Shown piece after piece: positions 3,853 through 53,119 of a DNA stretch of 64,000 nucleotides. Position 1 is the stretch's first letter; every line of letters starts with the position of its first letter. The notes beneath the pieces are model-generated. The model saw nothing but the letters and a program-made list of their open reading frames with translations, did not search any database and was not told the origin of the DNA. Origin of the DNA: a virus; the IMG/VR virus record IMGVR_UViG_3300033233_000006, positions 62,001 through 126,000 of that record. The stretch is one strand, 5' to 3'. The position numbers were made by a program, and so were the translations under genes.

Positions 3853-4662
3853 ATGGGCTCGCGCGAGTTCGGGCGGCGTACAGGTAATCTGGACAAGCTC
3901 GACTACGACCAGGCCGTCGCCGAGGGTCTCGGTGCCATCTTCGACGACGAGAAGAACCAGTACTTCCTCCCGATGGTCGACTCGAAGGGGCGCGGGATCT
4001 TCATCAGGCCCCAAGGGAGCGATGCGCCCATCGAGATCAGGCGGGCGCTCGTCGTCTTCAAGAAGCCCGAACCGACCAACGTCAACGACATCCTTCCGAT
4101 GATCGTCCTGAACCTCGACGACATCTCGTTCAACGCCAAGCGGCTCCTCGGCGTCACCGAGCAGTATCGCCTCGCCTCGGAGGGCGCCCATCGAGTAAAG
4201 ATCGGGAACGAACTGGGGTGGGACTCGTACGAGACCCGTGAGCAGGAGTGGCCGTTCGATCTGATCTACACCATCGAGTGCTGGAGCAGGTTCCGAGTCG
4301 TCGCAAACCAGCTTCTCCAGATGGCTCAAGTCAAGTATCCTGGTTACGGTTCTCTCACGGTCACCGACAGCATCAACAACGAGCGCGTCTATCACACGTT
4401 CCAAGAGGGCACCCAGGATCTCACGGAGGTCGACTCGCTGGTCGAACGCTACTGCGGCTACAGCCTGACCATCAGAGTCGAAGGCGAATACTCCAACGAA
4501 AAGATCGCCTTCGACGCCCCCGCCTTCCTCGGCCAGACCATTCCTGCTTCTGGGGGTGGCGGTGGAGGGGGTGGAGGTGGTGGAATAGACCTTGGCCCCG
4601 GCGGTCTCATCGGCGATGGCCGTCCTACCGAGCGTGTTACGCTCATAGAACCCGACGAATGA
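3853..4662 (+). CDS. Putative tail terminator or neck-region protein with polyglycine tract
   Basis: A 269-residue protein. The core contains DDISFNAKRLLGVTEQYRLA, EQEWPFDLIYTIECWSR and YSLTIRVEGEYSNEK, a mixed alpha/beta pattern; the position before the sheath gene fits a gp15-like tail terminator, but this is inferred. Eleven consecutive Gly codons near 4552-4584 separate the core from an acidic C-terminal tail. There is no clear Shine-Dalgarno before the ATG at 3853, but a TAGAAT hexamer lies at 3841-3846, so the transcript may be leaderless. Confidence 0.6.
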   Translation: MGSREFGRRTGNLDKLDYDQAVAEGLGAIFDDEKNQYFLPMVDSKGRGIFIRPQGSDAPIEIRRALVVFKKPEPTNVNDILPMIVLNLDDISFNAKRLLGVTEQYRLASEGAHRVKIGNELGWDSYETREQEWPFDLIYTIECWSRFRVVANQLLQMAQVKYPGYGSLTVTDSINNERVYHTFQEGTQDLTEVDSLVERYCGYSLTIRVEGEYSNEKIAFDAPAFLGQTIPASGGGGGGGGGGGIDLGPGGLIGDGRPTERVTLIEPDE

Positions 4663-5004: not shown

Positions 5005-7761
5005 ATGGCGAACACTCTTGAGATCCTGAGCCCCGGCGTCTTCGGCTTCGAGAAGAAGCCTGGGCGCGCGCCTCAGTCATTCTCCCCGGCCAAGATGGGC
5101 ATCGTCGGGTGGACCGATCAGGGTCCGTCCAACCTGCCGGTCCAGGTCCAGTCGTTCGAGGACTTCAAGGCCGTCTTCGGCGACATCTCGACGCTCAGCG
5201 TCGTTCCGCTCGCGGTGCAGGCGTTCTTCGCGACGGGCGGCCAGGCGGCGTGGGTCAGCCGAGTCGTTCCCGCCGACGCCGTCGCCGCGTCGGTGCAGGT
5301 CGATCCGGTGCCCGGTCCGACGAAGTGGACCTTCACGTCGCTCGGGGAAGGCACCTGGGGCAATTCGACGACGGTCCGCATCCGCGGCAACCAGAACTTC
5401 CTCGACCGCACCCCCGGCTCGGTCAAGTGGGACAAGTTCGACCTCCTCGTTCTCCGACCGTTCCCCGTCGATCCGACGATCATCACGGCGGCTGAGACGT
5501 TCGAGGCGATCACGCTCACCGACGCGACCGCGACCGACTACCTCGGGACGGTGATGGCCGACCCGTCGCGGCGCTCGACGCTCATCACGGTCACGGCTGG
5601 CATCAGCGGCGTGCCGACCGGGCTCCTCGGGGCGAACTACCAGGACGAGGTCAGCGGCGTCGGCACCGGCATCCTGACGAACTTCGTCTTCACGCTCCTC
5701 AACGGGAATGTCCTTCCGGGCAACTACCGGCTCGTCGCGGGCGGCACGCAGGTCAACGACCAGGCCCAGACGCCCACCGGCCTGATCAACAACTCGAACA
5801 TGCTGTTCACGCTGACAGTCCCCGGTTTCCCGATCGCCGACGGAACGCTCAAGCTCTTCTACGCGAAGTTCCCGTCGCTCATCGCGCAGGCGCTCACGGT
5901 CACCGGCGCGATCAACGGCGTCAACAAGGACTTCACAGTCGCCATCGGCGCGTTGGGCAACGCCGTCTACCGCGAGGGCACGGTCTTCCGCATCCGCTAC
6001 GCCGCTGTCGCGGGCGCGTCGCCGCAGCTCCTCTTCACGGTCGGCGCATCGCCCGCGACCTACGACCTCTCGACCACGCCGCTCACGAGCACGCCGATCA
6101 TGCCCGGCTCGGTCTCGATCGCGGTGACCACGGTCGCGAACGGTGCGCAGGTCATCACCGACGACGGCAACGGGAATCTCACCAACCCGCTCGCTCTGGC
6201 GGCACCCGGTACGATCGACTACGTCACGGGCGCGATGACGGGCATCACCCTCACGCTCACGGCGCTGTCGACGGTGGTCGCGACTTACAACTCCTCGCTC
6301 GCGATCACCAAGGGCGCATCGAGCAGCAACGTGGCGCAGGGCGTTGCGCTCGTCGGCTCGATCGACGGCACCGGCGTCAACACGATCAACCTCACGAACT
6401 CGACGACTGCGCCGACCACGAACGGCGCCATCTCGTTCAGAACGTTCGTCGCCCCGCTCGCCGGCACGACCATCCTCATCGACTACGTGAGGACTGGCAT
6501 CATCAACTCGTCACTCGCGGGCGTGCTCACGGGCGACGTGAACCTCGTGCCGACCCACACGATCGACTTCACGACCGGTCTCACCCAGTTCACGACGACG
6601 TTCCCGCCGCTCACCGGCACGACGATCGACGCCACCTACCAGACCGGTCTCGTCATCAGGGACAACGGCCTCGGGCGCCTGATCGGCAACGTCAATCCGA
6701 CCGGGGTCAACACGATCGACTACGCCACGGGCGCGGTGAACGCCCAGTTCTCGACGCCGCCGCTCAGCGGAGCGACGCTCTACTCGAACTACGACACGCT
6801 CGCGCCGTTCCTCGACTTCCCGCTCACCGGCGGACTCAACGGCAGCGCGATCAGCCGGTCGGACATCTCGCTGGCGGGACCGCCGATCACCGGGCTCGAA
6901 GCGACGAAGAAGGGCATCTACGCCCTCGATCTCGTCGAGGAGCCGCTCAACGTCATCGTGCCCGACTTCGAGGGCTCGCAGTTCGTCCAGTTCGACCTCG
7001 TGCAGTTCGGAAAGAACCGGGCCGACAACCGCTTCCTCATCATGGGCTTCGGCTTCGGCACGACGGTCCCCCAGGCGATCCAGTACGTCCTCGTCACCCA
7101 GGCGTGGGACGTGAAGTTCGGAGCGATCTACTACCCCAACATCTACTTCACGAACCCGGTGACGGAGCTGGCCCAGCTCATGCCGGTCACGCCGTTCGCA
7201 GCCGGCATCTACGCGAAGACGGCCCACAACAAGAACGTGGGCAAGGCTCCCGGTGGCGTCGAGGACGGAGCCCTGGACGGCGAGGGCACGGTCGGTCCCG
7301 AGTTCAAGGTCGAGCTGGCCGACCGCAACGCGCTCTACCAGGCCAAGATCAACCCGATCATCTCCTCGCAGGCGACGGGTCTCTCGGTCTGGGGCGTCCG
7401 CACGCTCTCCAACGAGCGCCGGTGGCGGTACGTCAACGCCCGCACGCTGCACGACTACCTCATGTACGCGACGAGCCTCCAGCTCCAGTGGGCCGTCTTC
7501 GAGAACAACGGGCCTCCGCTCTGGGCGAAGATCAGCACCGCGCTCAAGGGCTTCTACGGGTCGCTGTTCCGACTCGGCTACTTCGCGGGCGATACCGAGG
7601 CGCAGGCGTTCGACGTGGTCTGCAACTCGACGAACAACAACCAGAAGACGATCTCGCAGGGCAAGGCGATCATCGACATCGGGTTCGCCCCCAACACCCC
7701 AGCCGAGTTCATCATCTTCACGCTCAAGCAGCCGGTCGGCCAGCAAGCGTCGCTGGTCTAA
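5005..7761 (+). CDS. Tail sheath protein
   Basis: A 918-residue contractile tail sheath subunit. The N-terminus SPGVFGFEKKPGRAPQSF and the SFEDFKAVFGD and FFATGGQAAWVSRVV segments are typical of sheath domain starts. The C-terminus (NERRWRYVNARTLHDYLMY, then FYGSLFRLGYFAGD and the TNNNQKTISQGKAIIDIGFAP stretch) is the conserved handshake region. It is longer than usual because of a central insertion (about 5600-6850) of repeated beta units with the pattern DDGNGxL...TIDYxTGA...PPLxGTT...YxT. A related unit recurs in the fibre at 29564. The stop is followed at once by an inserted endonuclease gene. Confidence 0.93.
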   Translation: MANTLEILSPGVFGFEKKPGRAPQSFSPAKMGIVGWTDQGPSNLPVQVQSFEDFKAVFGDISTLSVVPLAVQAFFATGGQAAWVSRVVPADAVAASVQVDPVPGPTKWTFTSLGEGTWGNSTTVRIRGNQNFLDRTPGSVKWDKFDLLVLRPFPVDPTIITAAETFEAITLTDATATDYLGTVMADPSRRSTLITVTAGISGVPTGLLGANYQDEVSGVGTGILTNFVFTLLNGNVLPGNYRLVAGGTQVNDQAQTPTGLINNSNMLFTLTVPGFPIADGTLKLFYAKFPSLIAQALTVTGAINGVNKDFTVAIGALGNAVYREGTVFRIRYAAVAGASPQLLFTVGASPATYDLSTTPLTSTPIMPGSVSIAVTTVANGAQVITDDGNGNLTNPLALAAPGTIDYVTGAMTGITLTLTALSTVVATYNSSLAITKGASSSNVAQGVALVGSIDGTGVNTINLTNSTTAPTTNGAISFRTFVAPLAGTTILIDYVRTGIINSSLAGVLTGDVNLVPTHTIDFTTGLTQFTTTFPPLTGTTIDATYQTGLVIRDNGLGRLIGNVNPTGVNTIDYATGAVNAQFSTPPLSGATLYSNYDTLAPFLDFPLTGGLNGSAISRSDISLAGPPITGLEATKKGIYALDLVEEPLNVIVPDFEGSQFVQFDLVQFGKNRADNRFLIMGFGFGTTVPQAIQYVLVTQAWDVKFGAIYYPNIYFTNPVTELAQLMPVTPFAAGIYAKTAHNKNVGKAPGGVEDGALDGEGTVGPEFKVELADRNALYQAKINPIISSQATGLSVWGVRTLSNERRWRYVNARTLHDYLMYATSLQLQWAVFENNGPPLWAKISTALKGFYGSLFRLGYFAGDTEAQAFDVVCNSTNNNQKTISQGKAIIDIGFAPNTPAEFIIFTLKQPVGQQASLV

Positions 7762-7779: not shown

Positions 7780-8619
7780 ATGGCTCGCGCTGCGGCAACT
7801 TGGACCCAAACCGAAAAGGACTTCCTCACGAAGTCCTATTCGTCGTTTGGTTCCAAGAAGTGCGCCGCAGCGCTGGAGAGGCCCGAGGGAGCGGTTCGGA
7901 CGATGGCGAACCGCCTCGGGCTCAAGCTCGCCGCAAAGAACGCGACTCACCGGAAGCTCGGCCACAGCCAGAAGGCCGAGATCGTCGCGCTCTACCGGAG
8001 CGATCCGACCATCTCAGCGCAGGCGATCATCGACCAGCTCAAGCTCCCGGTGAAGGTCGATTGCGTCTACAAGGCGCTCGCCCAGGCCGGAGTCAAGCGC
8101 GGAACGACCGGCCAACGCAACCGACGGTGGACCGATGCCGAGGAACTGGTCATCGTTGCCGACTACGTCGGAGGAATGTCGCAGCCCGAGATCGCGGCGG
8201 CTCACAGCACCCGCCCTGGCGTCATTTCGGGCATCCTCAAGCGACGCGGCGTGAAGACGCGGCATCAGGAGCGGGAAATCTCGGATGTCGAGTGGACCGA
8301 GATCATCCGGCGTTATCAAGCGGGCGACGTAATCGTCGAGGGGATCATGTGTCGATACACACCCGACTTCGTTTTGACGAGCGCAGACGGAGACGAGACG
8401 CTGGTCGAGGTGAAGGGCCGCTGGTTCACGCGCTCACGGCTCAAAGTCGAGTCGTTCCGTCTGCTTTACCCACACGCCCATCTCGAAGTGTGGGACGCCT
8501 CCGTCCTGACGGATCTCGGAATCCTCCGTTCGATCACCGAGCGTAACAATGAGCGGCGTCGTAAGGCGAGCGCGACGCCAAACAGCTCCCTAATAAGCTC
8601 AAGCACACAGGAGTCATAA
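7780..8619 (+). CDS. Free-standing homing endonuclease, PD-(D/E)XK type with Myb/HTH repeats
   Basis: A 279-residue protein. The C-terminal nuclease core has YTPDFVL followed about 12 residues later by LVEVKGRW, the Asp and Glu-x-Lys of a PD-(D/E)XK fold. Three helix-turn-helix-like units precede it (TWTQTEKDFLTKSYSSFGSK, RRWTDAEELVIVADYVGG, and QKAEIVALYRSD between them). Its first seven residues, MARAAAT, are identical to those of the tail-tube gene that follows, but with different codons. It thus occupies the original tube start codon and ribosome-binding site (GATAGGAGATAGAGC), and the tube gene begins again after it. Confidence 0.8.
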   Translation: MARAAATWTQTEKDFLTKSYSSFGSKKCAAALERPEGAVRTMANRLGLKLAAKNATHRKLGHSQKAEIVALYRSDPTISAQAIIDQLKLPVKVDCVYKALAQAGVKRGTTGQRNRRWTDAEELVIVADYVGGMSQPEIAAAHSTRPGVISGILKRRGVKTRHQEREISDVEWTEIIRRYQAGDVIVEGIMCRYTPDFVLTSADGDETLVEVKGRWFTRSRLKVESFRLLYPHAHLEVWDASVLTDLGILRSITERNNERRRKASATPNSSLISSSTQES

Positions 8620-8625
8620 GTCCTT

Positions 8626-9117
8626 ATGGCTAGGGCAGCTGCGACCGACCCGTACCTCAACTTCCGGTTCCACGTCACGGACCCGGCTGGCGGCAACCTG
8701 GACCCGGTCGCCGGGTTCACATCCGTCGCGACGCCCGAGATCAGCATCGAGCCCGCGCCCTACCGCGAGGGCGTCATGCGCTGGACGCAGAAGTACCCGG
8801 GCGTCCAGTCGGTGAGCGAACTCCAGCTCTCGAAGGGCACCGTCCGTCGAGAGTCGGACTTCTTCGCGTGGGTGCTCCGCGTCATCAACGGCGGCGTGGC
8901 GTCGTACCGCACCGACCTCCAGATCGCGGAGTTCCACATCACCGACGCCTTCGGCATCAACGGCGCCCCGTCGCGCATCATGCGCGTGCGCGAGGCGTGG
9001 CCGGGTGCGACGAAGCCGATGGCCGACAAGGACGCGTCGGGCTCGGAAGTCGCCATGCAGTCGCTCACAATTCAGCTCGAAGAGCTTGAGCTAGAGATCA
9101 TCCCCTCCCCGGTGTGA
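8626..9117 (+). CDS. Tail tube protein, T4 gp19-like
   Basis: A 163-residue protein of the expected size for a contractile tail tube. It shows the typical order: N-terminal beta strand NFRFHVTD, loop with EISIEPAPYREG, KYPGVQSVSELQLSKGT, and a C-terminal SLTIQLEELELE strand. It lies after the sheath, as in most myoviruses. Codons 3-7 (AGG GCA GCT GCG ACC) differ from the synonymous CGC GCT GCG GCA ACT that begin the upstream endonuclease. The nearest Shine-Dalgarno, GGAG, lies inside the end of the endonuclease gene. Confidence 0.9.
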   Translation: MARAAATDPYLNFRFHVTDPAGGNLDPVAGFTSVATPEISIEPAPYREGVMRWTQKYPGVQSVSELQLSKGTVRRESDFFAWVLRVINGGVASYRTDLQIAEFHITDAFGINGAPSRIMRVREAWPGATKPMADKDASGSEVAMQSLTIQLEELELEIIPSPV

Positions 9118-9169: not shown

Positions 9170-9724
9170 ATGAGCCTTTTCGATCGCATCAAGCCGCTGC
9201 ACGAGTTTGACCCGAGCAAGCATGCAGCGGCGGCTGCAAAGGCGCAAAAGACGCTCGGCGCGTTCCAGAAAGCACCGCACGCGCCCACGGGCCACACACC
9301 GGCGATGCAAGCCTTCGACAAGCCCATGCAGGCGAGGAACCAGGCGAAGGCCGACGCGCGCAAGCACGAGGACGCCGGCCCCTCACTCGGTGCTCGCATT
9401 GGCGCCCGAGCGCTGACCGAGCAGACCGAGGCGGAGGCCGCGGCCCATCCCAGGCCGCTCCTCGAAGACCTCGTGGCGGCCCGTTCGGTGCGGTTCTTCT
9501 CGCCGCGCGACATCCAGTACGCGATCGAAGACCTCGCTACGGCAGCGGAGCGGTTCCAAGAGCGAGACTCGCGCTTCAGCTACATGAAGCTCGGTCGTCG
9601 CGGGAAGGACAGCTGCGAGGACGAGAAGAAGGCCAAGGCCATGCTGGAGGCCGCGCTCAAGGAGCTTCGCGAGTCGGCCAACGCCGTGAAGAAGTACGCG
9701 GACCTCTGCGACGCCGACTACTGA
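9170..9724 (+). CDS. Hypothetical tail-region protein, 184 aa
   Basis: Begins MSLFDRIKPLHEFDPSKHAA; rich in Ala, Lys and Gln in the first half (low-complexity, probably extended) and helical at the end (KKAKAMLEAALKELRESANAV). The middle part SPRDIQYAIEDLATAAERF suggests a helical bundle. No family recognised. It lies between the two tube-like genes and may assist tail assembly. Confidence 0.7.
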   Translation: MSLFDRIKPLHEFDPSKHAAAAAKAQKTLGAFQKAPHAPTGHTPAMQAFDKPMQARNQAKADARKHEDAGPSLGARIGARALTEQTEAEAAAHPRPLLEDLVAARSVRFFSPRDIQYAIEDLATAAERFQERDSRFSYMKLGRRGKDSCEDEKKAKAMLEAALKELRESANAVKKYADLCDADY

Positions 9725-42819: not shown

Positions 42820-42844
42820 TGCAACTCCTCGGCGTTCATGTGTG
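42820..42844 (+). promoter_or_regulatory. Bipartite element TGCAACTCC-N11-GTGTG, copy 2
   Basis: TGCAACTCC (42820-42828), 11 bases, GTGTG (42840-42844), 20 bases before the preferred GTG start at 42865. With copy 1 on the opposite strand it makes the 201-base gap 42664-42864 a divergent control region. The gap also holds TAGAAC boxes at 42755 and near 42804 (plus strand) and one on the minus strand near 42735. Confidence 0.6.
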
Positions 42845-45463: not shown

Positions 45464-46269
45464 CCCGCTACGACTATTACAACGTGAAGCTCCCGGAGGG
45501 CGAGGCGCCCTTCGAGACGCGCGAGCAGGTCCGGGCCGCGTTCATGCAGCTCGCGATCAAGCTGGAGCCGCTCATGCGCCGCGCCCGGGTCGACTGGGGG
45601 AAGCCGGCAGAAGGCTCGCCGCTCGGCGAGGGTGAGGCGAGGGCGCTCAACAACGAGGTGCGCCGGCTGAACCGCGTCGTCGATAGGCTCGCCAAGGATG
45701 TGGTCGAGGGGATCGCCGCGCTCAAGCCGCCAGCCGAGGTGAACTACGCGCCCGAGGTGGACCGCGCGCTGGAAGACTACGTCGGCGACATCTACGACTT
45801 CGTCTGGAACAAGCCCGACCACGAACTGATCCCGCTCGCGATCGCAGTGCTCAACAAGGCCGGCTACGAGGGCGACACCGAGAAGGAGATCCTCAAGTCG
45901 CTTGCCGAGGTCGACAGCGACTCATACGACCGGGACGCGCGGTGGGCCAGGGAGCGTCCCGAAAAGAAGCCGCCCACGGACAAGCGCAAGATCCACGAGT
46001 GTCCGCGGTGCGAGACGGACGGCGAGCTTCGCGTGCCAGGCTCCAACCCACACCGACGCGAGGTGTGCAAGCGCTGCAACGGTCGCGGCTACGTCTTCCA
46101 GCTCGGGCGACCCCGCGACTGCGAGTACGGGATGACGAACGAGGGGAAGCTCGCCCTCAACGCCGGTCAGCCGTGGACCGAGCTGGACGAGGCGAGGGTG
46201 ATGCGCGAGGTCTACGACTACGACGAGGCCGAGATCGAGAGAGCGCTCGCGGAGTGGAGGGCGGCATGA
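45460..46269 (+). CDS. Hypothetical protein with zinc-ribbon
   Basis: GTG at 45460 overlaps the previous stop. 269 residues. N-terminal 150 residues are helical and charged. A zinc ribbon follows: HECPRCETDGELRVPGSNPH then EVCKRCNGRGYVF, i.e. C-x2-C and C-x2-C with a DnaJ-like CxxCxGxG second half. The C-terminus is acidic. A nucleic-acid-binding or adaptor role is plausible. It overlaps the next start by four bases. Confidence 0.7.
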   Translation: MTRYDYYNVKLPEGEAPFETREQVRAAFMQLAIKLEPLMRRARVDWGKPAEGSPLGEGEARALNNEVRRLNRVVDRLAKDVVEGIAALKPPAEVNYAPEVDRALEDYVGDIYDFVWNKPDHELIPLAIAVLNKAGYEGDTEKEILKSLAEVDSDSYDRDARWARERPEKKPPTDKRKIHECPRCETDGELRVPGSNPHRREVCKRCNGRGYVFQLGRPRDCEYGMTNEGKLALNAGQPWTELDEARVMREVYDYDEAEIERALAEWRAA

Positions 46270-46502
46270 CGCAGACCTGCGCGAGCTGCAAGCACTGGGA
46301 CGGGACCGCTCCCGACTTTGGTACTTGCAAGAAGGCGATGAGCACCAGCAGCGGTCGAGCGGTCGGCTTTCCCACGAAGGCGGTTGCTGTGCCCACCGGC
46401 CCCGACGGTCTCCGCTTCACGACGCCCGGTAACTTCGCGGTCTTGGAGACAGCGCACGATTTCGGGTGCAGCCAGTTCGGGCAGATCGGGGTGCCGACAT
46501 GA
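46266..46502 (+). CDS. Small Cys-rich protein, 78 aa
   Basis: ATG at 46266 in overlap with the previous stop. CASCKHW, GTCKK and FGCSQF give four Cys in the order C-x2-C ... C ... C, a pattern of small phage zinc proteins (CxxCKHW ... GxC ... FGCxxF). Its stop overlaps the ATG of the inserted HNH gene, which took over the original start of the downstream gene. Confidence 0.65.
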   Translation: MTQTCASCKHWDGTAPDFGTCKKAMSTSSGRAVGFPTKAVAVPTGPDGLRFTTPGNFAVLETAHDFGCSQFGQIGVPT

Positions 46503-47116
46503 AGCTCGAAGATGCGGTCGCACAGGGAATCCCGAGCTACGGACGCCTGACGATCACCGGACCGGCGCCGCCCGGAAAACGCGGAAGGCGCCGGGTTCGA
46601 GTCCGTTGCTCGTGTAACGAGCTGGTCGTCGCCGTGTCCGACTTGAAAAGTGGTAATACGAAAAGCTGCGGATGTCTTGTGCGAGAGCGCATGACGAGGC
46701 ACGGGATGTGGAAAAGCCCGGAGGCTGCGGCATGGCGTCAGATGAACCACCGGTGCCCGAATGGGAATAGCGAGTCTTACGCCGACTACGGTGGTCGCGG
46801 TATCAAGGTCTGCGAGCGGTGGCGTGAGAGCTTCGAGGCGTTCTTCGCCGACATGGGACCGCGGCCAAGCGCGCATCACTCCCTCGATCGCTACCCCAAC
46901 AACGATGGAAACTACGAGCCTGGCAACTGCCGCTGGGCGACCGCCAAGCAACAGGCGCAGAATCGCCGAGACAACGTTCGGCTCACCGTCGACGGAGAGA
47001 CTCTGACGGTTGCCGAGTGGTCGAGAAGGTCGGGGGTTCCCGACCGAACGATCCGGGGCAGACTCACCGCCGGTTGGACCCACGAACAGGCAATAAGGCG
47101 GATGGAGACCCGATGA
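46499..47116 (+). CDS. Free-standing HNH endonuclease (SLDR family) fused to a captured gene start
   Basis: 205 residues. It begins MKLEDAVAQ, which copies the beginning of the next gene (MRLEDAVSQ) but with different codons, then continues with the family's zinc-like part (VRCSCNELV ... SCGCLVRER), YADYGGRGIKVCERW, the catalytic SLDRYPNNDGNYEPGNCRWA and one helix-turn-helix module (ETLTVAEWSRRSGVPDRTIR). The ATG overlaps the stop of the upstream gene, i.e. the ancestral coupling site is now used by the endonuclease. Confidence 0.88.
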   Translation: MKLEDAVAQGIPSYGRLTITGPAPPGKRGRRRVRVRCSCNELVVAVSDLKSGNTKSCGCLVRERMTRHGMWKSPEAAAWRQMNHRCPNGNSESYADYGGRGIKVCERWRESFEAFFADMGPRPSAHHSLDRYPNNDGNYEPGNCRWATAKQQAQNRRDNVRLTVDGETLTVAEWSRRSGVPDRTIRGRLTAGWTHEQAIRRMETR

Positions 47117-47829
47117 GGCTTGAGGACGCCGTCTCACAAGATGTAATCAACCGGACCTACGCCACGCTTCGCGCGACGCTTCGCGAGGACTGCTGCATAG
47201 CGGCCTCGACCATCTTCGCCGCTGTCCTCAAGAACCTCGGCTTCCGCGCTGAGCTGGTTAGCGTGCGGCTCTCGATCTTCAACCCGGTGTTTGCCAGGTG
47301 GCTTGTTGCGAACGACTGGCGCAATCCGTCCGAGGACGAGGTGAAGAAGCTCAAAACGGAAGGGGCGCGCGTCGTGGTCGTCGGTGACGGAGGAAAGCCG
47401 GAGCCGGGAAAGTGGCCGGGCCACCTCGTCACCGCCGTCCACCCCAGGCGCGGCCAGGGGTCGGGCTACCTCATCGACCTCTCCGCGCCGCAGGCGAATC
47501 GCCCGCGTAAGGAAATCAAGGTCGCGCAGCCCATCCGTATCGAGATGTCGGCGGAGCGGCTCCACGCGTTCATCGACGGCAAGATCGCCGCTCGCGGGCA
47601 GCGCACCGACCAGAGCGTCGTCGACTACTACGTCAAGAAGGGCGATGCCTCCTACCAGGTCTCGCTGGACTGGGCCGAGCGTAAGACCCGATACGGAGAG
47701 CACATCGACGAGCTGACTAAGGGCATTCGTGAGTTCGTCAGGGCGGGGGCTGCAACTCCTCACGCTCCGGGTGTTGAAGGGACGAGCGCCGACGCAGGAG
47801 CGCAAGAAGACCAGGTCCCGAAGGTGTAA
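47113..47829 (+). CDS. Hypothetical protein, possible papain/transglutaminase-like fold
   Basis: 238 residues. The N-terminal half has DCCIAASTIFAAVLKNLGF (Cys at a helix start), GHLVTAVHPRRG (His in a strand) and YLIDLSAPQ (Asp), the order Cys-His-Asp seen in transglutaminase-like and NlpC/papain-type folds; this is a pattern match only. The first nine residues repeat those of the upstream HNH gene. The C-terminal 35 codons contain bipartite element copy 4. Confidence 0.6.
   Translation: MRLEDAVSQDVINRTYATLRATLREDCCIAASTIFAAVLKNLGFRAELVSVRLSIFNPVFARWLVANDWRNPSEDEVKKLKTEGARVVVVGDGGKPEPGKWPGHLVTAVHPRRGQGSGYLIDLSAPQANRPRKEIKVAQPIRIEMSAERLHAFIDGKIAARGQRTDQSVVDYYVKKGDASYQVSLDWAERKTRYGEHIDELTKGIREFVRAGAATPHAPGVEGTSADAGAQEDQVPKV
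47751..47775 (+). promoter_or_regulatory. Bipartite element TGCAACTCC-N11-GTGTT, copy 4
   Basis: TGCAACTCC at 47751-47759, GTGTT at 47771-47775, followed by GAAGG. It lies in the 3' end of the preceding reading frame and upstream of the tRNA-like element and the 47993 gene. Confidence 0.55.
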
Positions 47830-49334: not shown

Positions 49335-49823
49335 GTGGCATCGAGCGCCGAGCGTCAACGTCGTTACAGGAAACGCCATCTAACGATGGTGCGGGCGCGA
49401 GATGCTGCGACCCATCGCCAGGCCCGACGCGATGGAACGGATTACGCCGAGCGGTGCCGCGCCGCCAAACGAACGCCGGCTGCGCGCTCCAAGCGGAACG
49501 CTGCCCGTCGTAAACCGGCGTCGCGCGTCGCTCAGGCGGCGTACATGCGCGAACAACGGACGCGACCCGAGTTCAAGCTCAAGGACCGAGCGCGCTCGGC
49601 GGTCAAGCGGGCTGTCAAGACTGGTCTCATAGCGGTCCCGCTCGCCTGTCAGCGCTGCGGTCGTGATCCGGGGACCGGCGCCGATGGCCGTCGCCTGCTT
49701 CGGGCTCACCATCGCGGCTACGACAAGGCGCACGAGCTGGATGTCCAATTCGTCTGTCCGACGTGCGACGGTGACTTGGAGCGTGCGCGCAAAAACACGA
49801 CGCTCGAACGGTGGAAACGATGA
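49335..49823 (+). CDS. HNH endonuclease-like protein (HH zinc type)
   Basis: 162 residues. A very basic N-terminal half with repeated R-x-x-R segments (ERQRRYRKRHL; ARSKRNAARRK; YMREQRTRPEFK) precedes a zinc-stabilised HNH-like core: CQRCGRDPG, LLRAHHRGYDKAHEL, FVCPTCDGDLERARK. The HH-x-x-Y and Cys pairs match HNH proteins that act on HH-D-Y sites. Its stop overlaps the methyltransferase start. No duplicated gene end was found here. Confidence 0.75.
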   Translation: MASSAERQRRYRKRHLTMVRARDAATHRQARRDGTDYAERCRAAKRTPAARSKRNAARRKPASRVAQAAYMREQRTRPEFKLKDRARSAVKRAVKTGLIAVPLACQRCGRDPGTGADGRRLLRAHHRGYDKAHELDVQFVCPTCDGDLERARKNTTLERWKR

Positions 49824-52800
49824 GCGGCTATCTCAACGTCGTGGGCGTATCCGACAACATCGCTTGGCTCAAGCAGGTTCCAAGTGGTTCCGTCGACTCG
49901 TGTTGTACCGACGCTCCTTACGGGCTCGGCGAACCGCCGCCCATCCTGTCGGTCCTGATGGCCTGGGCTCGCGGGAAAGACTTCAAGCCCGAGGGCGCCG
50001 GCTTCATGGGGAACGAGTGGGACGCCTTCGTTCCGAACCCGTCTATCTGGCGCGAAGTTTTCAGAATTCTCAAGCCGGGCGGCTGGTGCCTTGTCTTCTT
50101 CGGCTCACGCACCTTCGACCTCGGCTCGATCGCGATTCGAGTTGCCGGCTTCGAGGTGCTCGATACGTGCATGTGGCTTTACGGCCAGGGTTTCCCGAAG
50201 TCGGTCGACATCGCCAAGGTGGTCGACAAGGACGCCGGCCACTGGCGGGGGCGCGCGGGCAAGGCCGTCTCCGACAACCGCTCGATGGCGGCGCCGAACT
50301 ACGAGCGGACGGACAAGGGCAAGGCGATCACCGAGGACGCGAAGAAGTGGGAGGGGTGGGGTACCGCCCTCAAACCGGCCTTCGAGCCGATCGTGGTGGC
50401 CCGGAAGCCGTTTGAGGGGACCTACGTCGAGCACGTCCTCGCGCACGGCACCGGCGCGCTCAACATCGACGCCAGTCGCGTCGGGTCCGGCGCGGACAAG
50501 GGCGTGTGGCCGGCGACCGACCGCGAGACGCGGAAGTTCTGGGACAAGCCCTCACACCAGGCCGTGACGGACACGTCGGTCGGACGCTGGCCGGCGAACG
50601 TGGTCCTCGCGCACGACCCGCGCTGCGTGAAAGTGGGCACGAAGACGGTCGGCAAGGGCGAGTCGCGCAAGGGCAACGATTCGCGCGACGACAAGACGGT
50701 CATCAAGCCGCAGGTCCCCGTCGGAAGCCGCGACACCTCGATTGTCGACTACGGAGCCGAAGTGGTCGACGACTGGAGGTGTGTCGAGGGGTGTCCGATC
50801 GGGCTGCTCGACGGACAAAGCGGCATCAGCAAGTCGGCGGGAGGCCGCATCGGGAACAAGGCCGGGATCGGCGCTCACGGGATCTACGGCTCCTTCGCGC
50901 CCGACGCCGTGAAGGGCGATCCGGGCTACGGCGACGAAGGAGGGGCGAGCCGTTATTTTAAGACCTTCCCCGAACCGTCGAGGACGGTTGACAACGACGA
51001 TTCTTCTACGCATGATGGGGCGATATGCGCAGAGAGTGCGAACACTGCGGAACATCGTTCGACGCCAAACCAAGCGCCGTCGCCCGAGGCTTCGGGCGGT
51101 TCCACTCCCGAGAGTGCGGGAGTCTCGCGAGGCGAAAGCGGGGTCGCGCCGATGCCTGGCGCTACTTCTCGAAACGCGACGGGCGCTGGTACAGAAAGTG
51201 GCGTGAGCCGGGAAGCCGGAAGCTCAATTCCCAACTCGAATCCAGGTGGGTCTGGGAGCAACACAACGGTCCCATCCCAGACGGGCACGAAGTCCACCAC
51301 GCCGACCTCGATCAGACGAACAACGAGTACGGGAACCTCAAGCTCATCACGGAAACGGAACACGACAACCTCCACGGACGACTCCGCGAAGACCACCGCG
51401 TCGTCAACGGCTGCGAAGAGCGGCGGTGCCAACGCTGTCTCCGGTGGAAGTCCATCGTCCGATTCAGCAAGAGGTCTGCCGGAACCTACCACGGCTACTG
51501 CAAAGGATGCGCGCGGAGCTATCTCCGTAAGTGGCGACGGGCGAACCGAGTCCACCACAACGCCTACATGCGGGCCTACCGAAAACCTCTCGCTCGACGG
51601 TAAGACGCGCTTCTTCTACACGGCCAAGGCTACGGCGAAGGAGCGATGGAGCTACTGCCGGGCGTGCAAGGTCGTCTTCCAGCACACGGCTGACGACGCC
51701 TTCGAGGAACACGACGCGCACAAGACCGAGGTGGTCTCGCATCCGACCCAGAAGCCGCTTGACCTCATGGAGTACTTCGTTCGGCTGGTGACGCAACCGG
51801 GCGGCACGGTGGTCGATCCGTTCTGCGGGTGCTACGACCCGCTCACATCGGTTCTCACCGAGCGCGGGTTCGTTTCGTGGCCGGATGTGAGGGACGACGA
51901 CGTGTTCGCGTCTCGCGCCCCCGACGGTTCGATCATCTACCAGAAGGCCCAAGGCTTCGTGCGGACCCGCTACGTCGGCGTGATGCATCACTACGTCGGT
52001 CGCTCGGTCGACCTTCTCGTCACGCCAGGTCACAACATGCTCTTTCGGCGGCATCACGACGCTGACCCCACAAACTACGAGTTGATCGGGTCGGAGAACG
52101 CCGCTGAGCGCTTCTATCACATACCGAACACATCGACGTGGACCGGCGCGGAGCCGGATACTCTGCGCGTCGGAACACTCGACCTTCCGGCGCAGGCGTG
52201 GCTTCGGTTCCTCGGGCTCTACATCGCCGAGGGGTGCGTCGCGCGTAAGCATAAGCGCGGCTACGGTATCTTCATCAAGCAGAGCAAGAGCGCCGAGGCG
52301 GTTGACGAGGTTCGGGCAACTATCCGCGGCATAGAGGTCGGGCGGCTCCGCGAACACACCTACGACGACCTCCACATCTTCGTGTGCCAGGAGAAGTCGC
52401 TGCACGCCTACTGCAAGGCGCTCGGCTACCAGCCAGACCGTCGCATCCCTCGCGAACTCCTCTCGCTCGGGCCGAAGCACTTGCGGGCGCTCTACGATGG
52501 TCTGATGCTTGGCGATGGGAGTCGCCGTAACGGTCGCGATTCTTACTGGACGTGTAGCCCTGGACTTGCCGACGACGTTGCCGAGATGATGATCAAGCTC
52601 GGGTTAGCCGCTTCGGTCTCTGCGCGTATTCGCCCAGCACGGATCTGCATGGGTCGGATAATCAAGTCCGACCGCTATCAGTACTCCACGCTCGCTCGAT
52701 ATGCGCGAGAGACAAAGATCGACACTTACAGGATGCGTCGCGAGGTGCCTTACGACGGCATGATCTACTGCGCGACCGTACCGCCCCATCACACGCTTCT

Positions 52801-53119
52801 TGTGAAGCGAAATGGCAAGATTGCGTGGTGCGGCAACACAGGTTCGACCGCTGTCGCAGCCAAGCGATGCGGATTCAACTTCGTGACGTGCGACATTGGG
52901 GAGGACTACGTCAAGATCGCCGAAGCACGGCTCGCCGCCGTGACCATCGGTAACGATGCCAAGATCGGCGCATCGTACTTCTGTCCCGGCTGCAAGGCGA
53001 AGGGCGAGATCAAGCTCATCGAGCGCGCAACCGTCGAACGCATGAAGGCCGACGGCAAAAAGGTGACCTGCTCGAAGTGCATGAAGCGGTACTCATACGA
53101 GGAGCTGGTGGGCGCGTGA
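49820..53119 (+). CDS. DNA methyltransferase (beta class) carrying an out-of-frame HNH insertion and an intein
   Basis: ATG at 49820 starts MSGYLNVVGVSDN (49811 is less likely). The N-terminal part has the catalytic motif IV variant TDAPYGLG, then ILKPGGWCLVFFGSRTFDLG; the C-terminal part has SHPTQKPLDLMEYFV and DPFCG/TGSTAVAA (motif I), order IV...I, as in beta-class N6-adenine/N4-cytosine enzymes. After intein removal two zinc ribbons remain (YCRACKVVF; FCPGCKAKG/TCSKCMKRY). Residues derived from about 50985-51600 are a Ser/Thr-rich stretch that is the out-of-frame reading of an inserted HNH gene. Left of it GGASRYFKTFPEPSR and right of it TRFFYTAKATAKERW are normal methyltransferase sequence. 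Whether the full chain is active is unknown. Confidence 0.85.
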   Translation: MSGYLNVVGVSDNIAWLKQVPSGSVDSCCTDAPYGLGEPPPILSVLMAWARGKDFKPEGAGFMGNEWDAFVPNPSIWREVFRILKPGGWCLVFFGSRTFDLGSIAIRVAGFEVLDTCMWLYGQGFPKSVDIAKVVDKDAGHWRGRAGKAVSDNRSMAAPNYERTDKGKAITEDAKKWEGWGTALKPAFEPIVVARKPFEGTYVEHVLAHGTGALNIDASRVGSGADKGVWPATDRETRKFWDKPSHQAVTDTSVGRWPANVVLAHDPRCVKVGTKTVGKGESRKGNDSRDDKTVIKPQVPVGSRDTSIVDYGAEVVDDWRCVEGCPIGLLDGQSGISKSAGGRIGNKAGIGAHGIYGSFAPDAVKGDPGYGDEGGASRYFKTFPEPSRTVDNDDSSTHDGAICAESANTAEHRSTPNQAPSPEASGGSTPESAGVSRGESGVAPMPGATSRNATGAGTESGVSREAGSSIPNSNPGGSGSNTTVPSQTGTKSTTPTSIRRTTSTGTSSSSRKRNTTTSTDDSAKTTASSTAAKSGGANAVSGGSPSSDSARGLPEPTTATAKDARGAISVSGDGRTESTTTPTCGPTENLSLDGKTRFFYTAKATAKERWSYCRACKVVFQHTADDAFEEHDAHKTEVVSHPTQKPLDLMEYFVRLVTQPGGTVVDPFCGCYDPLTSVLTERGFVSWPDVRDDDVFASRAPDGSIIYQKAQGFVRTRYVGVMHHYVGRSVDLLVTPGHNMLFRRHHDADPTNYELIGSENAAERFYHIPNTSTWTGAEPDTLRVGTLDLPAQAWLRFLGLYIAEGCVARKHKRGYGIFIKQSKSAEAVDEVRATIRGIEVGRLREHTYDDLHIFVCQEKSLHAYCKALGYQPDRRIPRELLSLGPKHLRALYDGLMLGDGSRRNGRDSYWTCSPGLADDVAEMMIKLGLAASVSARIRPARICMGRIIKSDRYQYSTLARYARETKIDTYRMRREVPYDGMIYCATVPPHHTLLVKRNGKIAWCGNTGSTAVAAKRCGFNFVTCDIGEDYVKIAEARLAAVTIGNDAKIGASYFCPGCKAKGEIKLIERATVERMKADGKKVTCSKCMKRYSYEELVGA
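50988..51016 (+). promoter_or_regulatory. Promoter inside the methyltransferase gene, for the nested HNH gene
   Basis: TTGACA (perfect -35, 50988-50993), 17 bases, CATGAT (51011-51016). The HNH start at 51025 follows eight bases later without a Shine-Dalgarno. It lies in the inserted or junction sequence, so the element probably brings its own expression signal. Confidence 0.6.
51025..51603 (+). CDS. HNH endonuclease nested out of frame in the methyltransferase gene
   Basis: 192 residues, different frame from the host gene. It begins MRRECEHCGTSFDAKPSAVA (zinc finger, partner RFHSRECGS), then the catalytic GHEVHHADLDQTNNEYGNLK and TEHDNLHGR, typical HNH_3, and a second zinc ribbon (RRCQRCLRWKS ... 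GYCKGCARS). The convincing domain set shows that this frame is the genuine product of the inserted segment. It fills nearly the whole insert, leaving no room for a group I intron core. Confidence 0.88.
   Translation: MRRECEHCGTSFDAKPSAVARGFGRFHSRECGSLARRKRGRADAWRYFSKRDGRWYRKWREPGSRKLNSQLESRWVWEQHNGPIPDGHEVHHADLDQTNNEYGNLKLITETEHDNLHGRLREDHRVVNGCEERRCQRCLRWKSIVRFSKRSAGTYHGYCKGCARSYLRKWRRANRVHHNAYMRAYRKPLARR
51830..52837 (+). mobile_element. Intein with LAGLIDADG homing endonuclease (in the methyltransferase)
   Basis: 336 residues. Begins with Cys in CYDPLTSVLTERGF, has a block B-like VDLLVTPGHNMLF, LAGLIDADG helices LRFLGLYIAEGCV and LYDGLMLGDGS, and ends KRNGKIAWCGN, followed by Thr as first residue of the C-extein. 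It is placed exactly in motif I (DPFCG^TGSTAVAA). The end (RNG-x-x-WCGN, Gly before Asn) and start are nearly the same as in the intein at 43174. Confidence 0.92.

Follow-up and report, generated by a model that had tools for sequence, protein, structure and literature searches.

Probable capture of neighbouring gene starts by two endonuclease genes of a contractile-tailed phage

The window, a stretch of 64,000 nucleotides, spans bases 62001-126000 of a virus record that is 131,251 bases long. The phage has a GC content of 65% and carries contractile-tail genes for a sheath, a gp19-like tube and a gp25-like baseplate protein. Genes of endonuclease type are abundant: HNH genes start at 46499, 19376, 58471 and 53823, an endonuclease-like gene at 49335 and a PD-(D/E)xK-like gene at 7780. 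Two further genes, at 42838 and 49820, are interrupted by LAGLIDADG domains, and these insertions are likely inteins. The features on which the argument turns are collected in Table 1; genes are referred to below by their first position, and gene calls for the record were made with a simple codon-bias caller.

Table 1. Features at the two sites and the two LAGLIDADG-interrupted genes, in window coordinates
Feature	Positions	Strand	Size	Family match or sequence
Tail sheath gene, left of the second site	5005-7761	+		phrog_23 (4e-44), PF17482
Endonuclease-like gene between sheath and tube	7780-8619	+	279 aa	phrog_190 (1.3e-7), phrog_945 (3.5e-5)
Leader copy U at the second site, codons 1-7 of gene 7780, MARAAAT	7780-7800	+		GCT CGC GCT GCG GCA ACT (after ATG)
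Copy D at the second site, start of the tube gene, MARAAAT	8626-8646	+		GCT AGG GCA GCT GCG ACC (after ATG)
Tail tube gene	8626-9117	+		PF06841 (1e-14), phrog_4542
ADP-ribosylglycohydrolase-like gene with inserted LAGLIDADG domain	42838-45057
Gene for a small Cys-containing protein, before the HNH gene	46266-46502	+		no family match
HNH endonuclease gene	46499-47116	+	205 aa	phrog_374 (4e-57), phrog_3377 (6e-52)
Leader copy U, HNH codons 1-9, MKLEDAVAQ, proposed captured start of gene 47113	46499-46525	+		ATG AAG CTC GAA GAT GCG GTC GCA CAG
Copy D, codons 1-9 of gene 47113, MRLEDAVSQ	47113-47139	+		ATG AGG CTT GAG GAC GCC GTC TCA CAA
Proposed target gene	47113-47829	+	238 aa	one relative, LR756511
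DNA methylase gene with inserted LAGLIDADG domain	49820-53119

The adjacent genes 46499 and 47113 begin with nearly the same nine residues, and seven of the nine codons differ between them. An earlier note on this DNA had drawn attention to the likeness and read it as an HNH gene fused to a captured start of gene 47113; the two peptides and their codon differences are as described, while the span given there, 46495-47145, does not coincide with the bounds of the two genes. Seven of the 27 nucleotides differ, and five of these seven changes are silent, the other two being conservative (K/R and A/S). Both ATGs overlap the stop of the preceding gene as ATGA, which the same note took for a duplicated coupling architecture. 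The overlaps are real, but they carry little weight as evidence: a 4-bp overlap is found at 36 of the record's 154 same-strand gene neighbours, so this arrangement cannot count as an independent observation. Codon adaptation is lower in the HNH gene than in any other gene of the record longer than 300 bp (CAI 0.51, median 0.68), in line with a recent arrival. AlphaFold predicts a confident HNH fold for its product (mean pLDDT 89), in which residues 1-10 form a short helix with an average pLDDT of 65.

The similarity of the two starts is exceptional within the record. They reach a BLOSUM62 score of 31 across residues 2-9, the top value for the 13,861 gene pairs in the record, and the two genes concerned are adjacent. 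Only 1 of 491,314 random cross-phage pairs scored at least 31, which corresponds to about 2e-6 per pair and to 3e-4 over all adjacent pairs in the record; these estimates are approximate, because the genes come from a simple codon-bias caller and the random pool consists of mechanical ORF starts. A degenerate DNA pattern of the leader is found at two places in the window, 46499 and 47113, with 0 expected. When the six endonuclease-like genes of the window were each compared with the next gene, two matched (scores of 31 and 21, the latter reached by random pairs at a rate of 1e-4) and four did not (-8 to -14), so that start capture, if correctly identified, would be one route among several by which such genes settle.

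Comparison with the HNH family indicates that the start of gene 46499 is unusual. Its product matches phrog_374 (E 4.4e-57) and phrog_3377 (5.7e-52) over the HNH core, and the core motif SLDR...NYEPGNCRW is kept in an alignment with 32 viral relatives. The first 9-13 residues depart from the leader usual in these two families, which among 80 viral relatives reads [DN]-[LI]-T-G-Q-[RK]-[FY]-GRL (M..xDLTGQRFGRL), and four extra residues, GIPS, stand between leader and GRL. LEDAV occurs in none of the 80 relatives and is likewise missing from the HNH paralogues 19376 and 58471, as the earlier note had stated; the possibility raised there that LEDAV-like starts are usual in this family is thus not borne out. 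Two relatives, L020 (MRLIDRLGQ) and L012 (MRDEDLTGQ), share D5 and Q9 with the leader (M[KR]..D...Q), and part of it could therefore be native to the HNH protein. A scan of the loci of the 80 relatives for starts that match a nearby gene returned only tandem HNH copies and chance-level matches; since none of these relatives shares its start with an unrelated neighbour, capture would be rare in this family.

The protein of gene 47113, the presumed donor of the start, has no Pfam, PHROG or NCBIfam match, and the sole relative in the data searched lies in LR756511, a huge phage of 595 kb (31-33% identity). No other relative was found in viral contigs, genome contigs, plasmids, phages or, with a two-row profile, 398 genomes of one phylum, and DNA scans with the conserved motifs returned chance matches only. 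These motifs (CC..., WPGHLVTAV and Y(L/I)(I/V)DLS) suggest a Cys-His-Asp enzyme of the papain/transglutaminase type; a structure prediction made without an alignment was unusable (pLDDT 37). The earlier note had looked to homologues of this protein for a conserved LEDAV: the relative that was found has KVLEALTQ instead, aligned to the start of 47113 with a match in the 0.14% tail, and its own start is longer than that of 47113 (MDLSAYQLKVLEALTQ). We found neither an empty site nor a syntenic relative for 46499 in the data searched. Because of this, and because 47113 has a single distant homologue, the direction of copying at 46499 is argued from analogy with the tail-tube site.

This second site emerged from a scan of all neighbouring genes for alike starts. 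The endonuclease-like gene 7780 and the tube gene 8626 have MARAAAT in common and nothing else of note. The 7780 protein contains helix-turn-helix segments and a PD...EVK nuclease motif, together with a DUF1064 match (8e-4) below the cut-off. In four relatives, sheath and tube are directly adjacent and the site is empty, with tube starts of MARAAAT (L099), MARAAST (L101 and L103) and MARAIET (L104); the tube of the window is 86% identical to that of L099, 78% to those of L101 and L103 and 54% to that of L104. In L102, the sheath is followed in the same layout by a homologue of gene 7780 (38% identity) that starts MARAAS (MARAASQTLEVEDVL), the contig ending inside this endonuclease. The site behind the sheath is thus filled in the window, by gene 7780, and in L102, by its homologue, and empty in the four others. 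Since all four empty-site tubes carry such starts, and the L102 endonuclease does too, MARAA belongs to the tube gene. By these sequence comparisons, the direction is clear at this site: the endonuclease has taken the start of the tube.

The nucleotides around the two tube-type starts are consistent with this direction. A ribosome-binding-like AGGAGA lies 6 nt before the ATG of gene 7780 and 5 nt before that of the empty-site tube of L099; in front of the tube that follows the endonuclease, AGGAG is some 12 nt away from the start. For the Arg of the leader, the four empty-site tubes and the two endonuclease genes all use CGC; AGG is confined to the tube that follows gene 7780. Between the tubes of the window and of L099, identical residues have different codons at four of the six positions in codons 2-7 and at 28% elsewhere; these small counts fit a recoded replacement start, without proving it. 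All five changes between the 7780 leader and the empty-site tube are silent (P 0.004), and a silent excess is likewise seen in the 46499/47113 pair (5 of 7, P 0.008), so the leaders kept their protein sequence, the explanation being either selection on the leader of the endonuclease or an origin of the two copies in different phage lineages. Positions 7792-7807, which cover endonuclease codons 5-10, match an internal stretch of the tube gene (8690-8705) at 15 of 16 nt, a likeness that we set aside as probably due to chance.

Could the copying at 46499 have run the other way? LEDAV...Q would then be one form of the native HNH leader (M[KR]xxDxxGQ); on arrival of the HNH gene, a copy would have passed to gene 47113 and displaced its original start. 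Among 54 HNH-family leaders, those of L020 and L012 do score 17 and 16 against the start of 47113, at the very top of the phage-start pool, yet the family as a whole does no better than random (P about 0.4). The KVLEALTQ of the single 47113 homologue at the aligned place, the extra GIPS of the HNH protein and the opposite direction at the tube site all speak against this reading, which we consider unlikely. Slightly less probable still is that two unrelated short helical starts came to look alike by chance or convergence. Only nine residues are involved, silent sites differ freely between them, and D5 and Q9 are already present in the leaders of some HNH members; against this stand the rarity of such a score, whether reckoned per pair or across all adjacent genes of the record, and the tube site, where empty alleles confirm a further endonuclease/target pair within the window.

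A common N-terminal peptide, used for docking or localisation or favouring efficient translation, could produce shared starts with no insertion event, and residues that are kept while codons drift are what one would expect of such a peptide. MSL(L/F)DR, with which several adjacent genes of L099 and L103 begin, also points that way. However, the peptide is different at each site and in every case the same as the start of the local neighbour, an endonuclease and a tail tube have no common role, and kept residues with drifting codons do not fit a translation signal, so that we regard this explanation as very improbable. Intron ORFs in frame with an upstream exon are a known layout, and the captured start could in principle be an exon 1 to which the endonuclease ORF is fused, with splicing in vivo. 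We rejected this reading and hold it to be extremely unlikely: no Rfam intron match, including the group I ribozyme core, was obtained at either site (E<=1), and each target gene has a complete start of its own, which makes splicing unnecessary.

We favour the interpretation that a free-standing HNH gene arrived in the phage at the start of what is now gene 47113 and became fused in frame to a copy of about the first nine codons of that target. The HNH gene would thereby use a start of the target's type, translationally coupled to gene 46266, and a further copy of the start, silently recoded, would keep the product of 47113 intact. The endonuclease-like gene 7780 would have done likewise to the tail-tube gene, and we infer that 46499 followed the same course. 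Capture may have occurred through break repair during putative homing, and the silent differences may help the repaired target to escape cleavage or may mark a donor of another lineage. That the leader of the HNH gene is a captured start of 47113, as the earlier note had proposed, is now supported by the HNH relatives without LEDAV and, strongly, by the second case at 7780, and we consider it probable. With similar confidence, we think that both nuclease genes settled by capturing the neighbour's start and leaving a rewritten copy to the target.

Other alike starts and ends occur in this phage group. MSL(L/F)DR begins consecutive, otherwise unrelated genes after the tube, at 4348, 4769 and 5077 in L099, at 2484 and 2923 in L103 and at 9170 in the window. 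The extra genes of L099 and L103 match no endonuclease and no known family; as they have no endonuclease features, start sharing is not limited to endonucleases, and these genes may point to a wider insertion of genes at starts in this group. Upstream of the window, three tandem small genes (window-relative -5217 to -4104) have alike ends, (S/V)(I/V)(D/E)H(L/I)G.I, and seemingly unrelated middles. The last two of them (-4846 and -4466) both begin MSLPAF, a pair that we rejected as a case of start capture: their ends are also alike, which identifies them as tandem paralogues. Still further upstream in the record, from -61905 to -17485, about ten small and otherwise different proteins share a DPVELLAELA-like C-terminal tail, and several of these begin with a GDRV motif.

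The closest parallels that we know from the literature come from fungal mitochondria, where mobile endonuclease ORFs (mORFs) occur together with a duplicated 3' end of the target gene, as in atp6 of Allomyces macrogynus and atp6, atp9, cox2 and nad3 of Glomus sp., the two copies having low nucleotide and high amino-acid identity (PMC3630166). The phage sites resemble these systems in that one end of a target gene exists twice in connection with an endonuclease ORF, the two versions differing mainly at silent positions. They differ in the end concerned: the mORFs duplicate the 3' end, the insert supplying the new end, whereas in the phage the duplication covers 7-9 codons of the 5' end, with the endonuclease fused to the upstream copy. 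When the C-termini of adjacent genes in the record were compared, no 3' copy was seen at the neighbours of endonuclease genes. Some mitochondrial introns of Tremella carry N-terminal duplications (PMC7315562), and here too a mobile element is combined with a duplicated piece of a host gene in an exchange of gene fragments; those elements are fungal and intron-borne, whereas no intron was detected at the phage sites. Among phages, the seg and mob genes of T4 and the HNH genes of Cluster J mycobacteriophages are standalone genes between phage genes that often overlap the upstream stop, T4 mobE doing so with UAAUGA, and comparison with empty relatives has identified precise as well as messy insertions of free-standing endonucleases (PMC2988022, PMC3706429). 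The portions of these two accounts on which we draw do not mention capture of the target's start. Capture of a 5' start by phage endonuclease genes seems to be undescribed in the open-licence papers that we searched, although earlier reports may exist.

We advance more tentatively, as a possibility that we would not yet expect to hold, the idea that start capture is a regular settling route for phage endonuclease genes, used by at least two unrelated nuclease families. By taking the ribosome-binding site and first codons of its target, the endonuclease gene would tie its expression to that of the target, and a recoded, cleavage-resistant start would keep the target alive and hinder clean loss of the insert. 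For annotators, alike N-termini of neighbouring phage genes can represent an insertion scar and not a common function. Start capture in the phage would mirror, at the 5' end, the duplication of 3' ends in fungal mitochondria, and would explain how an inserted endonuclease gene obtains a translation start. It thereby suggests, in a form open to testing, how a free-standing endonuclease gene may enter a dense phage operon, with the target surviving and neither intron nor intein being needed.
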